A DNA stretch of 64,000 bases, taken from NCBI GenBank assembly GCA_944322545.1, contig CALUPF010000028.1, forward strand, positions 1 to 64,000, read 5' to 3'. Within the stretch, counting starts at the first letter, position 1. The number at the start of each line of letters is the position of its first letter. The notes beneath the pieces are model-generated. The model searched no databases. It was not told the origin of the DNA and saw only the letters and a list, made by a program, of their open reading frames with translations. This DNA is from Candidatus Gastranaerophilales bacterium (GTDB lineage: Bacteria > Cyanobacteriota > Vampirovibrionia > Gastranaerophilales > Gastranaerophilaceae). Positions 3,686 through 63,625 of this stretch are shown here, piece by piece. A program made the translations under genes and the position numbers.

Positions 3686-4534
3686 ATGAATAATTTAGAC
3701 TTATCTTTTTCGTGTAAAGAAAAAATTAGAAAAACGGAGTTTGCAGGACTTAGCTTAGGTGGAGATTCATCTGTTCCGTTTGTTAATGAAAACGGTAATG
3801 AAACAAAGCCATTGATAGCTTTAGAATTTTTATATTCTTCAAAAGATTTGATTGATAATCTTCAAAAAGAAAATAAAGCTGATATTATCTCTATCAAATT
3901 TGATATCTTAGAAGACGAGTTAGAAAACAAACTCGAAGAAATAAAAAAGTTTTTAACGGAACAAAAGGAGTTAATCTCAAAGAAACCTTTGATTTTAAGG
4001 GGCGCAAATAATAACGAGATTGATAAAAAGCTAATTCCTGTTTTGTGTGAATTTGCTCCAAATGAGTCAATAATAGCTTTTGCTGATGAAATGACTTATG
4101 AAGGGATTGTTCCTTTTGTATTGAAACATAATCATATACTTGTTTTAAGAACGCCTATTGATATAAATTTGGCTAAAGAACTTAATATATTGACGACGGA
4201 TAAGGGCTTGAGTCCTGAAAGAATTTTAATTGACCCTGATATGGGAGGCCTTGGATACGGTTTGGATTATGGATATAGCATAATCGAAAGAATCAGACAG
4301 GCTGCTTTTGAAGGGGACAAAATGCTTAATATGCCTATCATTGCTTTTATCGGTGAAGAATCTTACAGAGCGAAAGAGGCTAAATCTGATACGTTTTCTG
4401 AAAACTGGGGTAAGTTTGATGAAAGAAGCGTTATGTGGGAGATTTCAGGGGCTTGTGCAATGATTAGTGCCGGTGCAAATATCGTTGTGCTTTGGAATCC
4501 GAAAAGCGTTGAAGTTTTGAAGGGAATGTTTTAA
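3686..4534 (+). CDS. acsD: corrinoid iron-sulfur protein small subunit (AcsD/CdhD-like)
   Basis: Small subunit of the corrinoid Fe-S protein, a TIM-barrel that pairs with AcsC and carries methyl groups on cobalamin between methyltetrahydrofolate methyltransferase and acetyl-CoA synthase in the Wood-Ljungdahl pathway. The C-terminal half is diagnostic: GGLGYGLDYGYSIIERIR, GDKMLNMP, YRAKEAK and a WE...AGA segment align with known AcsD. At 282 residues it is somewhat shorter than typical (about 310-320). No acsA, acsB or acsE lies nearby. The stop overlaps the acsC start by one base (TAATG), so the two are translationally coupled. A promoter lies directly upstream and no ribosome binding site is visible. 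Confidence 0.85.
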   Translation: MNNLDLSFSCKEKIRKTEFAGLSLGGDSSVPFVNENGNETKPLIALEFLYSSKDLIDNLQKENKADIISIKFDILEDELENKLEEIKKFLTEQKELISKKPLILRGANNNEIDKKLIPVLCEFAPNESIIAFADEMTYEGIVPFVLKHNHILVLRTPIDINLAKELNILTTDKGLSPERILIDPDMGGLGYGLDYGYSIIERIRQAAFEGDKMLNMPIIAFIGEESYRAKEAKSDTFSENWGKFDERSVMWEISGACAMISAGANIVVLWNPKSVEVLKGMF

Positions 4535-5748
4535 TGGAGCTTACTGGATTACAAATTTTTAAATACCTACCTGCTGCAAAAAAAGCAGAAGGGACAAATT
4601 GCAAAAAATGTGGTTGTCCTACTTGTATGGCGTTTGCTTTGAAACTTGCTAAAAAACAGGTGGATATTGAAAAATGTCCTAATGTTCCTGATGAGTTAAA
4701 AGAAATATTTAGCGAAGCTTCAAAAGTTCAACAACATGAAATTAATCTTGGCTTTGGCGTAAAAGTTGGTGGTGAAACTGTTATGTTTCGTCATGATAAA
4801 ACCTTTGTTAATAAAACAGCAATCGCTATTGAGCTAGATTGTTCAGATAAGGATTTTGATAAAAAAATAGAAAAAATTAAAAACTATGAAATTGAAAGAA
4901 TTGGCGAAAAATTCAAGATAGACGTTGTTTATTTGACAGGTGTTCCTTCTGATTCACAACAAAAAAAACTTGAGGAATTAAAAGACAAATTAATTCCTGT
5001 TTTAAAAAGTGATGATGAAAGAATTCTTTTAGGCAAAGATTTAGAAGATTTAGAAAAATTGTCTTTAAAAACTGACTTAAAAGAGAAGATTTTAGAGCTT
5101 GAATATAAAAATAGTTCTATTTCTTCAATGATGGAACAATTGACTTATTTAAGACGAGCTGCAATCTTGAAGCGTCATGAGCCATTGACTTGGCCTGTTA
5201 TGGTTAAATTGTCAAAAGATTCTGATGTTTTTAAAACTTGTGCGGCTGCATCTTTTTTGATTTGCAGATATGCTAATATAATTGTTTTGCCTGAGTTTAA
5301 TGAGGCTTTGTTATCAACCTTGTTTACTTTAAGACAAAATATTTATACAAACCCTCAAAAGCCTTTGCAGGTAGAAGCTAAAGTATACGAATTTAATGAA
5401 CCAGATAAAAATTCTCCTGTATTTTTGACAACGAATTTTGCTTTGACTTATTTTGCCGTGGCAGGCGAATTAGAGTCATTGCCTTTTGGGTCATATTTGG
5501 TTGTGACACCTGCTGATGGTATGAGTGTTTTGACAGCTTGGTCTGCTGACAAATTTACGTCTGATATGGTAGCTAAGTCTGTTAAAAACTTTGATCTTAT
5601 AAATAAGGTCGATACTAGAGAGATAATTATCCCAGGGCTTTTATCTCATATGCAGGAAGAGTTGCAAGAAGCTATGCCTGAATGGAAAATAGTTGTTGGC
5701 ACAATTGAAGCGTGTCAAATTCCTGAATTTATAAAAAACAGAGATTAA
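4534..5748 (+). CDS. acsC: corrinoid iron-sulfur protein large subunit (AcsC/CdhE-like)
   Basis: Large subunit of the corrinoid Fe-S protein. The N-terminal domain has Cys23-X2-Cys26-X4-Cys31-X16-Cys48, exactly the spacing that binds the [4Fe-4S] cluster used for reductive activation of cobalt. The middle is TIM-barrel-like. The C-terminal part (IIPGLLSHMQEELQEAMP through VGTIEA) matches the cobalamin-binding domain of AcsC. The 404 residues are slightly short of the usual 440-450. It forms a two-gene operon with acsD. With no CO dehydrogenase/acetyl-CoA synthase genes alongside, the methyl acceptor is unclear; a folate-independent methionine synthase is one possibility (inference). Confidence 0.87.
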   Translation: MELTGLQIFKYLPAAKKAEGTNCKKCGCPTCMAFALKLAKKQVDIEKCPNVPDELKEIFSEASKVQQHEINLGFGVKVGGETVMFRHDKTFVNKTAIAIELDCSDKDFDKKIEKIKNYEIERIGEKFKIDVVYLTGVPSDSQQKKLEELKDKLIPVLKSDDERILLGKDLEDLEKLSLKTDLKEKILELEYKNSSISSMMEQLTYLRRAAILKRHEPLTWPVMVKLSKDSDVFKTCAAASFLICRYANIIVLPEFNEALLSTLFTLRQNIYTNPQKPLQVEAKVYEFNEPDKNSPVFLTTNFALTYFAVAGELESLPFGSYLVVTPADGMSVLTAWSADKFTSDMVAKSVKNFDLINKVDTREIIIPGLLSHMQEELQEAMPEWKIVVGTIEACQIPEFIKNRD

Positions 5749-61057: not shown

Positions 61058-61390
61058 ATGATAAATTCAGTAGTGTTGGTGGGAAGAGCGGGACAAGATC
61101 CTGAAATGAAATATTTTGAGTCAGGGAAAGTTAAAACTACTTTTTCAGTGGCTGTAAGCAGATGGGACTCAAAAACAAAAGCAGAAGTAACTGACTGGTT
61201 TAACGTAGAATTGTGGGATAAGCTTGCTGAAATAGCTGGTGAATATGTGAAAAAAGGCAAACTTGTTGCTATTGATGGAAAGTTGGCTTCAAGCAAATGG
61301 AATGATGCTTCTGGAGCTCAAAAAGAAAGATTTTATGTGAGAGCAACTAATTTGAGATTGCTTTCAGCAGGACGTGCGGATAATCAATAA
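61058..61390 (+). CDS. ssb: single-stranded DNA-binding protein, cyanobacterial-type, no acidic tip
   Basis: A 110-residue OB-fold SSB: NSVVLVGRAGQDPEMKYFESGKV, TDWFNVELWDKLAEIAGEYV and KGKLVAIDGKL closely resemble the short SSB of Cyanobacteria. It ends RADNQ with no linker and no acidic DDxxPF tip, so it may not recruit the usual SSB partners. The gene is the first of a three-gene unit (TAA overlaps the next ATG by one base). It may be a second SSB used under special conditions, alongside the rpsF-linked ssb. Confidence 0.9.
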   Translation: MINSVVLVGRAGQDPEMKYFESGKVKTTFSVAVSRWDSKTKAEVTDWFNVELWDKLAEIAGEYVKKGKLVAIDGKLASSKWNDASGAQKERFYVRATNLRLLSAGRADNQ

Positions 61391-62694
61391 TGTTTATTTC
61401 AAATAATATCGGTATTGTTGCGGATGATTTAACTGGTGCTGATGACACCTCATTGCAGTTTCACTTAAGAGGTGCTAACACTCAGATTTTGCTCGATTAT
61501 AGTGTTTTGCCTGAAAATAGAAATAATACTCAAGTTTGGGCAATTCCTACTGAAACGAGAAACATTGATGCACCTACTGCTTATGAAAAAGTTAAACAGG
61601 CTACGAAAGTTCTGGCTGAAGATTTGAATGTTGAATATTTCTACAAAAAAATGGATTCAACATTACGCGGGCATGTTGCAGTAGAAGCGCTAGCTATGCT
61701 AGAGGCTTTGGACTGGGATGCTGCAGTTATTATTCCTGCATTTCCACAAGAAGGCAGAACAACAATTGGTGGGTATCATCTTTTAAAAGGGATTCCGATA
61801 GAAAGAACTGAACTCGCTAGAGATCCTCGTTTTCCTATTTACGAATCGCATATTCCGACAATTTTGAAAAACGAATTGAACAACGAACAAGATGAGTTGG
61901 TTGGTTTAATTGAGCTGAGAACCGTTATAAAAGGCGCGGGTCCTATTCTTAAAAGAATGAATGAGATGATTGAACAAGGCGTCAAATTGATCGTAGTAGA
62001 TGCAATGTCTGTGACTGATATTGAGCAGGTTGTTTTGGCTATGGAAAAAAGCAATCACAAGATTCTTCCTTGTGGTTCAGCCGGATGTGCACAGGTTTTA
62101 GGTAACATTTGGCTTCCTGAGTCAGAAAATCATAATATTGAAAAAACAATTCCAGAAATGCCTAAACTCATTGTCTCAGGTAGTGCAACTCAATTGACAG
62201 CTTCGCAATTGCAAAAATTAGATGATGACGAAGATATCGACAATACTTATTTTATTGCTTTGAAAATGGAAGATATCTTAGAAGGTGTAACAGATGAAAT
62301 TGTGACAAGAGTTTCTGAAAACCTTGTAAAAGACAATGTTGTAGTTGTGCATACGTCTGATTTGATGGTTGATTCTAAGATAATTTCTCAACTTTTATTC
62401 GATAATGAAATGTCTAAAAATCAGTTTATTTCAAAAATTGGTGACTATCTTGCTACATTGACTAAAAGAGTTTTGTTCAACCGAGATGCAATTTTGATTT
62501 CGGTTGGTGGTGAAACGTCTTTTAAATGTTGTAAGGCTATTAACAGCAACAGCTTGCAAATAGTCGATGCAATATGTCCTGCGATTCCACTTTGTTTGGA
62601 TATGAAGGCACAATGGATAGTTACTAAGTCAGGAAATCTTGGCAACTCTAACACTATCATTGATATTTTAAAATATTTTGAACACCATGAATAA
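61390..62694 (+). CDS. four-carbon acid sugar kinase (DUF1537 family)
   Basis: A 434-residue kinase of the OtnK/DtnK/DenK family, which phosphorylates four-carbon acid sugars such as D-threonate, D-erythronate or 3-oxo-tetronate. The N-terminal IGIVADDLTGADDT, KKMDSTLRGHVAVE and IIPAFPQEGRTTIGGYHL are family landmarks. The C-terminal nucleotide-binding half has SGSATQLTASQL and SVGGETSF. Translation is coupled at both ends: a one-base overlap with ssb and an 8-base overlap with the pdxA-like gene. The pair predicts a phosphorylation-oxidation route. Confidence 0.88.
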   Translation: MFISNNIGIVADDLTGADDTSLQFHLRGANTQILLDYSVLPENRNNTQVWAIPTETRNIDAPTAYEKVKQATKVLAEDLNVEYFYKKMDSTLRGHVAVEALAMLEALDWDAAVIIPAFPQEGRTTIGGYHLLKGIPIERTELARDPRFPIYESHIPTILKNELNNEQDELVGLIELRTVIKGAGPILKRMNEMIEQGVKLIVVDAMSVTDIEQVVLAMEKSNHKILPCGSAGCAQVLGNIWLPESENHNIEKTIPEMPKLIVSGSATQLTASQLQKLDDDEDIDNTYFIALKMEDILEGVTDEIVTRVSENLVKDNVVVVHTSDLMVDSKIISQLLFDNEMSKNQFISKIGDYLATLTKRVLFNRDAILISVGGETSFKCCKAINSNSLQIVDAICPAIPLCLDMKAQWIVTKSGNLGNSNTIIDILKYFEHHE

Positions 62695-63625
62695 AAAAAT
62701 AGCAATAACATTAGGTGATTTTAACGGTATTGGTCCTGAAATTACGGTAAAAGCTTTGAATAAATTGCAGCTTAAAAAAGATGAAGTTGTAATTATCGGA
62801 TCAAAAAAGCTTTTAAATGGGCTTAATACTGATTACGAAGTTGTTGAAATTCCTTTTGATGAAAACTGGCTTGAGATAGGACAAGAAACCAAACAGGCTG
62901 GAGAATTTTCATATAACTGTTTGATAAAAGCTTGTGAAATGGCTAAAAATCGAGAAATTACTGCTATTGTAACAGCACCTGTGTCTAAAAATGCTTTGCA
63001 TCTTGCGGGTCATGACTTTTCAGGTCAAACAGAAGTGTTGGAGAATAATCTTGCTAATCCTTTGAAAAATGAGAAGGCTGAAATGCTTTTTGTTGCTAAG
63101 GATTTTAGAGTTTTGCTTTTGACAAGACATCTCGCATTGAAAGACGTGAAAATTACAAAAGAGATTTTAATAGAAAAAATAAACAGGATAAATTCTGTTT
63201 TAAAAAATAAGTTTTTTATAGAAAAACCTAAAATTGCATTGTGTTCATTGAACCCTCATGCAGGGGAAAATGGAATTTTGGGTGATGATGAGATAAAAGA
63301 ATTCGAACCGGCATTAGAGGTTTTAAAACACGATGGAATTGATGTAACTAAGCCAATGGCCTCTGATACGTTGTTTGTGAAAGCTGCTAAGCCTTATCTT
63401 ACAAATCAAAAACAGCCTTTTGATGTATATTGTGCTTGTTATCACGATCAAGGACTCATCCCTGTAAAAGTTTTGGCTATGGATGAGACAGTTAATATGA
63501 CAGTAGGCTTGTCTATTATAAGAACATCTCCTGCTCATGGAACTGCTTATGATATTGCAGGTAAAAATATTGCCTCAGACTCTAGTATGGTCGAGGCAAT
63601 AAAACAAGCTTTTTATGTTAACTGA
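62687..63625 (+). CDS. pdxA: PdxA-family 4-phospho-hydroxyacid dehydrogenase
   Basis: A 312-residue NAD-dependent, metal-binding dehydrogenase/decarboxylase. TLGDFNGIGPEI, VTAPVSKNAL, GHDFSGQTE, the metal-ligand histidines in TRHLALKDV, NPHAGENG and YHDQGLIPVK, and the C-terminal RTSPAHGTAYDIAGK are typical. Classical PdxA acts on 4-phosphohydroxy-L-threonine in vitamin B6 synthesis. The close PdxA2 subgroup acts on 4-phospho-D-threonate or D-erythronate and is found beside DUF1537 kinases, as here. The neighbour therefore favours the second role, but both are possible. There is no Shine-Dalgarno; it overlaps the kinase end. Confidence 0.88.
   Translation: MNKKIAITLGDFNGIGPEITVKALNKLQLKKDEVVIIGSKKLLNGLNTDYEVVEIPFDENWLEIGQETKQAGEFSYNCLIKACEMAKNREITAIVTAPVSKNALHLAGHDFSGQTEVLENNLANPLKNEKAEMLFVAKDFRVLLLTRHLALKDVKITKEILIEKINRINSVLKNKFFIEKPKIALCSLNPHAGENGILGDDEIKEFEPALEVLKHDGIDVTKPMASDTLFVKAAKPYLTNQKQPFDVYCACYHDQGLIPVKVLAMDETVNMTVGLSIIRTSPAHGTAYDIAGKNIASDSSMVEAIKQAFYVN

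Follow-up and report, generated by a model that had tools for sequence, protein, structure and literature searches.

The acsDC pair and its distribution

The window analysed here is a stretch of 64,000 nucleotides from contig C28 of a Gastranaerophilales metagenome-assembled genome (MAG; 1.92 Mb, 87% complete), in which two adjacent genes, acsD and acsC, encode the subunits of a corrinoid iron-sulfur protein (CFeSP, here AcsCD; Table 1). As the initial annotation had stated, both open reading frames (ORFs) are intact; one base is common to the acsD stop and the acsC start. The two subunits are of the CdhD type (Pfam CdhD, E 1.4e-16 for AcsD and 2.7e-54 for AcsC) and the larger one carries an N-terminal cluster and a C-terminal corrinoid domain, which identifies the pair as a CFeSP. 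The FeS domain PF04060 was found in AcsC, which also passed the NCBIfam gamma-subunit model PRK04165 (364 bits, curated cut-off 306); AcsD did not pass the NCBIfam cut-off. The cluster motif CX2CX4CX16C is exact, as had been claimed, and its cysteines C23, C26, C31 and C48 do not vary among the 48 AcsC sequences compared from the order. The corrinoid blocks TTNFALTYF, DGMSVLTAW and IIPG, common to the CFeSP structure 2h9a, are near-invariant in the same sequences.

The solved structures nearest to AcsC and AcsD are CFeSP subunits (2h9a, 4djd, 4c1n and 9fzy). AlphaFold2 modelling of AcsC yielded a structure of medium quality (mean pLDDT 66), for which Foldseek gave five significant matches (E <= 0.001), all of them to CFeSP large subunits (best E 4e-24). 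AcsD is about 30-40 amino acids (aa) shorter than characterised AcsD, and the central barrel of AcsC in the window's family is about 40 residues shorter than in 2h9a. These residues are kept in deep-branching relatives (L018-L028) and in characterised CFeSP, and AcsC is longer (423-465 aa) in members from other families of the order. Thirteen relatives at 67-72% identity were found, most of them from MAGs named Candidatus Gastranaerophilales.

Table 1. Features of the CFeSP locus in the window
Feature	Position	Strand	Basis
acsD, CFeSP small subunit, 282 aa	3686..4534	+	ORF, CdhD match, conserved across the order
acsC, CFeSP large cobalamin-carrying subunit, 404 aa	4534..5748	+	ORF, CdhD and FeS domain, AlphaFold2/Foldseek
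[4Fe-4S] motif of AcsC, C23-X2-C26-X4-C31-X16-C48	4600..4677	+	Sequence; none of the four Cys varies among 48 homologues
C-terminal corrinoid-binding domain of AcsC, residues 299-389	5428..5700	+	Blocks common to CFeSP 2h9a

This is the single PF03599 locus of the genome. Its flanks are unrelated, as previously described: reading of the window ORFs, which is not a full annotation, recognised no acs, coo or folate gene. Carbon monoxide dehydrogenase (AcsA/CooS) was likewise not recognised among these ORFs, and no genome search for it was made. The statement that acsE, cooC and folate genes are missing is correct for the flanks and fails for the lineage, in which acsE, folD, metF and genes for CooC-like and MetE-like proteins exist at unlinked places. 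In genome G015, three genes beside acsDC (L075:6031-9524) resemble by eye the activase/dehydratase-related DUF2229 family and are a possible reductive activator.

Gene counts across the order were made on 146 Gastranaerophilales genomes from 40 genera, of which 100 genomes and 29 genera carry AcsCD. AcsB (PF03598) was found in none of the 146, the window's own genome included, while two methanogen controls were positive in the same search. The initial view of a CFeSP lacking acetyl-CoA synthase thus extends to the whole sampled order, and a complete Wood-Ljungdahl pathway was rejected.

Partner genes across the order

A second, weak pterin-binding match beside FolP led to a protein of about 306 aa whose best PDB matches are methyl-tetrahydrofolate:CFeSP methyltransferases (2yci/2e7f, E 2e-60; MetH, 4.5e-22). 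Its pterin-binding barrel is nearer to these enzymes than to MetH or dihydropteroate synthase, and we consider it to be of the AcsE type; it scores under the NCBIfam cut-offs. This homologue occurs in 94 genomes, every one of them AcsCD-positive, with six genomes having AcsCD only, none AcsE only and 46 neither; the match in G126 is its MetH. Stand-alone methylenetetrahydrofolate reductase (MTHFR) accompanies AcsCD in 91 genomes (AcsCD only nine, MTHFR only two, neither 44). In two fully read loci of the window's genus its gene immediately precedes acsE, and, judging from match coordinates, it adjoins acsE in most other genomes of that genus. FolP was rejected as the AcsE of the window's genome, the sole PF00809 match there being dihydropteroate synthase.

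The third partner is a protein of about 360 aa belonging to the MetE/UroD superfamily and present in 115 genomes of the order. The copy of the window's genome, matched at C36:18368-19432, is located at C36:18359-19444 and is followed by genes for an ATPase and then FolD. Counting intact copies, a definition that excludes shortened or strongly diverged ones (all of these in AcsCD-negative genomes), AcsCD and the MetE-like protein occur together in 99 genomes and are both missing from 45, with one genome having AcsCD only (G110) and one the MetE-like protein only (G058). Fisher p-values for the AcsCD pairings range from 2e-35 to 8e-26, and overstate the evidence because they take no account of shared ancestry. 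Losses nevertheless fall separately within genera g2 and g7, besides whole-genus losses, and several independent co-losses are therefore likely. The operon MetE-like/CooC-like ATPase/FolD was present at every AcsCD-positive locus inspected, and in four deep-branching families acsE joins it. Among 386 genomes sampled across the phylum, the MetE-like family is essentially confined to Gastranaerophilales, a single 46-aa fragment being found elsewhere, and no relatives were found in viral contigs.

No Pfam family could be assigned to the MetE-like protein. When 20 members were scanned with curated models, the methionine synthase PRK00957 was the best (11 of 20, best E 5.5e-10), whereas PF01717 matched two of the 20 and at E 0.002; weak matches to MtbA and URO-D were also obtained. 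In 22 such proteins from AcsCD-positive genomes the residues G13-S14-L15-P16, D190-E191-P192, H231-C232-C233-G234-K235, D252 and C329-G330 (the CG of TPSCG) are invariant (L152 numbering). In MetE, the corresponding functions belong to Ser433, Asp599 and the zinc ligands His641, Cys643, Glu665 (Asp in MesB) and Cys726 (PMC7857596). S14, D190, H231, C233, D252 and C329 line up with these sites by motif order and approximate spacing, not by a significant alignment, and would correspond to the Ser/Asp and zinc-ligand pattern of core methionine synthases. A short MetE-like protein, of the sort that the initial annotation had suggested looking for, is present in 99 of the 100 AcsCD-positive genomes, the window's own included; as a candidate synthase it lies outside the recognised MesA-D/PF01717 enzymes.

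The CooC-like/MinD-like ATPase of the operon has a deviant Walker A motif and two invariant cysteines, C110 and C112 of the copy in the window's genome (C-X-C). Among PDB entries CooC matches it best (3kje, E 7e-5), which likens it to the CooC and AcsF ATPases, although here it is encoded where acetyl-CoA synthase is absent. One might guess that it helps to mature a metal or corrinoid site.

The prediction that the genome would lack MetH was borne out. No protein combining PF02574 with PF00809 was found there, nor any MetE or PF01717 match. A conventional MetH or MetE together with non-conserved cobalamin contacts in AcsC had been named as speaking against the initial proposal; neither enzyme is there and the corrinoid domain is conserved. 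Across the order MetH was found in three of the 146 genomes (G107, G114 and G126), all AcsCD-negative, for which the chance is about 3% (46x45x44 / 146x145x144). In the two loci that were read (L237:6990-11490 and L238:6802-11299) MetH (~891 aa) is adjacent to a fused homocysteine-methyltransferase/MTHFR of 611-614 aa, and the third genome has the same fusion; MetH and the fused MTHFR apparently take over in genomes that have lost AcsCD. Full-length MetE was found in three genomes, all three AcsCD-positive. Recognised core MetE (PF01717) was rejected as the methyl sink, being absent from the window's genome and from 143 of the 146.

In the window, at 61390-63625, a gene that by eye resembles a four-carbon acid-sugar kinase overlaps a PdxA-like dehydrogenase gene, which suggests sugar-acid breakdown.

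A proposed dismantled methionine synthase and its alternatives

We propose, with a probability of roughly 0.7, a dismantled cobalamin-dependent methionine synthase in which AcsCD carries the corrinoid. MTHFR would convert methylene-tetrahydrofolate to methyl-tetrahydrofolate, the AcsE-type methyltransferase would pass the methyl group to the Co(I) of AcsCD, and the MetE-like protein would transfer it from methyl-AcsCD to homocysteine, yielding methionine. From the genes, operons, co-distribution and residue conservation described above we infer the flow of methyl groups and its direction, homocysteine as the acceptor and the presence of a metal. The initial annotation had presented a stand-alone pair serving a folate-independent route. 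The pair does not stand alone, however: throughout the order it is accompanied by AcsE, MTHFR and the MetE-like protein. Since the first two of these companions are folate enzymes, the route probably depends on folate after all. A more specific version, to which we give somewhat less than even odds, is that AcsE, CFeSP and a fifth core methionine synthase family outside MesA-D form a separated, folate-fed equivalent of MetH derived from the Wood-Ljungdahl methyl branch, one genus having switched to a non-folate donor.

Several observations weigh against this proposal. A methyltetrahydrofolate:CFeSP methyltransferase had been suggested as something to look for, and the AcsE type is indeed present in 94 of the 100 AcsCD-positive genomes; in the window's own assembly, however, neither AcsE nor MTHFR was found, while all nine other genomes of the genus carry both. 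A contig gap could explain this, but the flanking genes were not found at the contig ends inspected (most ends). The five genomes of genus g6, 97-99% complete, are without AcsE and MTHFR and keep AcsC, AcsD and the MetE-like/CooC-like/FolD operon (L133, L141, L225-L228, L230-L232), with ratios of non-synonymous to synonymous substitution (dN/dS, NG86) of 0.02-0.16 where computable, i.e. under purifying selection. G110 (L197) is the single genome with AcsCD, AcsE and MTHFR and no MetE-like match; it may have a substitute enzyme. Conversely, five AcsCD-negative genomes retain the MetE-like/ATPase/FolD operon. The MetE-like profile had no match among PDB sequences, and its comparison with true MetE, direct or profile to profile, was not significant with the three MetE sequences compared. 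Finally, no cobalamin or S-adenosylmethionine (SAM) riboswitch reached the gathering threshold in 18 loci and the window.

Three of the five AcsCD-negative genomes with the operon (G062, G083 and G066; L189-L191) have a MetE-like protein that an in-frame deletion has shortened by about 50 aa; the remaining protein of ~290 aa keeps the metal ligands and its operon, with dN/dS of about 0.16. G058 is the one AcsCD-negative genome with a full-length, undiverged MetE-like protein. In three further AcsCD-negative genomes of genera g14 and g15 (L193, L194 and L196), divergent MetE-like proteins without metal ligands and without the operon possibly have a new, non-catalytic role.

The methyl group could also run in reverse, with the MetE/UroD-like protein demethylating some donor and loading CFeSP, and AcsE, MTHFR and FolD feeding the folate pool. 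FolD in the operon suits oxidation as well as synthesis, the weak MtbA and URO-D matches agree with such a role, and corrinoid O-, S- and halogen-demethylases belong to the UroD superfamily (PMC10418091). Such salvage would, however, leave most AcsCD-positive genomes without an enzyme making methionine from methyl-tetrahydrofolate, MetH is seen only where AcsCD is gone, and the best curated model of the MetE-like protein is a methionine synthase, so that we regard it as unlikely. Somewhat less likely still is that the MetE-like protein hands the methyl group of CFeSP to some thiol that is not homocysteine. The substrate pocket is putative, and the operon is kept in those five AcsCD-negative genomes; but the DEP, GS and zinc-ligand pattern is as in methionine synthases (PMC7857596), and most genomes have no other methionine synthase.

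That the MetE-like protein has nothing to do with AcsCD, which together with AcsE would serve some other acceptor, draws on g6, where AcsE is uncoupled from the rest, and on G110. We think it improbable, given an intact MetE-like protein in nearly all AcsCD-positive genomes against one of the 46 AcsCD-negative ones, and acsE inside the MetE-like operon in four families. Least credible of all is AcsCD as a non-functional Wood-Ljungdahl relic. The unrelated flanks and the shortened AcsC barrel in the window's family would agree with decay, yet AcsCD is kept in 29 genera with its cluster and corrinoid blocks near-invariant, and AcsC and AcsD have dN/dS (NG86) of 0.02-0.12 even in genomes without AcsE. 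For the order as a whole, these selection data refute a relic.

Relation to known systems

CFeSP as the methyl source of a short MetE-like enzyme is an idea put forward for Dehalococcoides (PMC7005905) and extended more generally to MesB and MesC (PMC7857596), where Price et al. left open whether the core synthase gets its methyl group from CFeSP. The system described here shares with Dehalococcoides MesB the short MetE-like enzyme, AcsCD as the proposed donor (a proposal there too) and the lack of MetH (PMC7005905, PMC7857596). It differs in lacking AcsB, in having MetF and AcsE in most genomes and in a MetE-like protein that does not reach the Pfam PF01717 level. The proposed chemistry, from methyl-tetrahydrofolate through cobalamin to homocysteine, is that of MetH, but it would be carried out by separate proteins, with CFeSP in place of the MetH B12 domain and a homocysteine module of MetE/UroD type rather than PF02574. 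AcsE and AcsCD are homologous to those of the Wood-Ljungdahl methyl branch, from which the system differs by the absence of acetyl-CoA synthase and by its scattered genes, with acsE located either beside metF or inside the operon of the MetE-like gene. Type 1 mlp clusters (PMC10418091) encode MtaA-like proteins that are also corrinoid-linked members of the UroD/MetE superfamily; these clusters concern methyl-sulfur or methyl-selenide metabolism, and the accessible part of that paper reports no CFeSP partner.

We found no paper linking Gastranaerophilales to CFeSP or to a methionine synthase. What is new is the absence of acetyl-CoA synthase across the sampled order, the proposed folate-fed route via AcsE and a MetE-like family lying below PF01717. 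Since the system described here has a small number of conserved partners, each with a gene of its own, the transfer from CFeSP to a core synthase is directly testable. If the proposal is true, acetyl-CoA synthase would no longer be needed for calling AcsCD functional, and one more enzyme family would have been overlooked by current Pfam models. It would also show a way in which the majority of the sampled members of this gut order, which have neither MetH nor MetE, could synthesise methionine.
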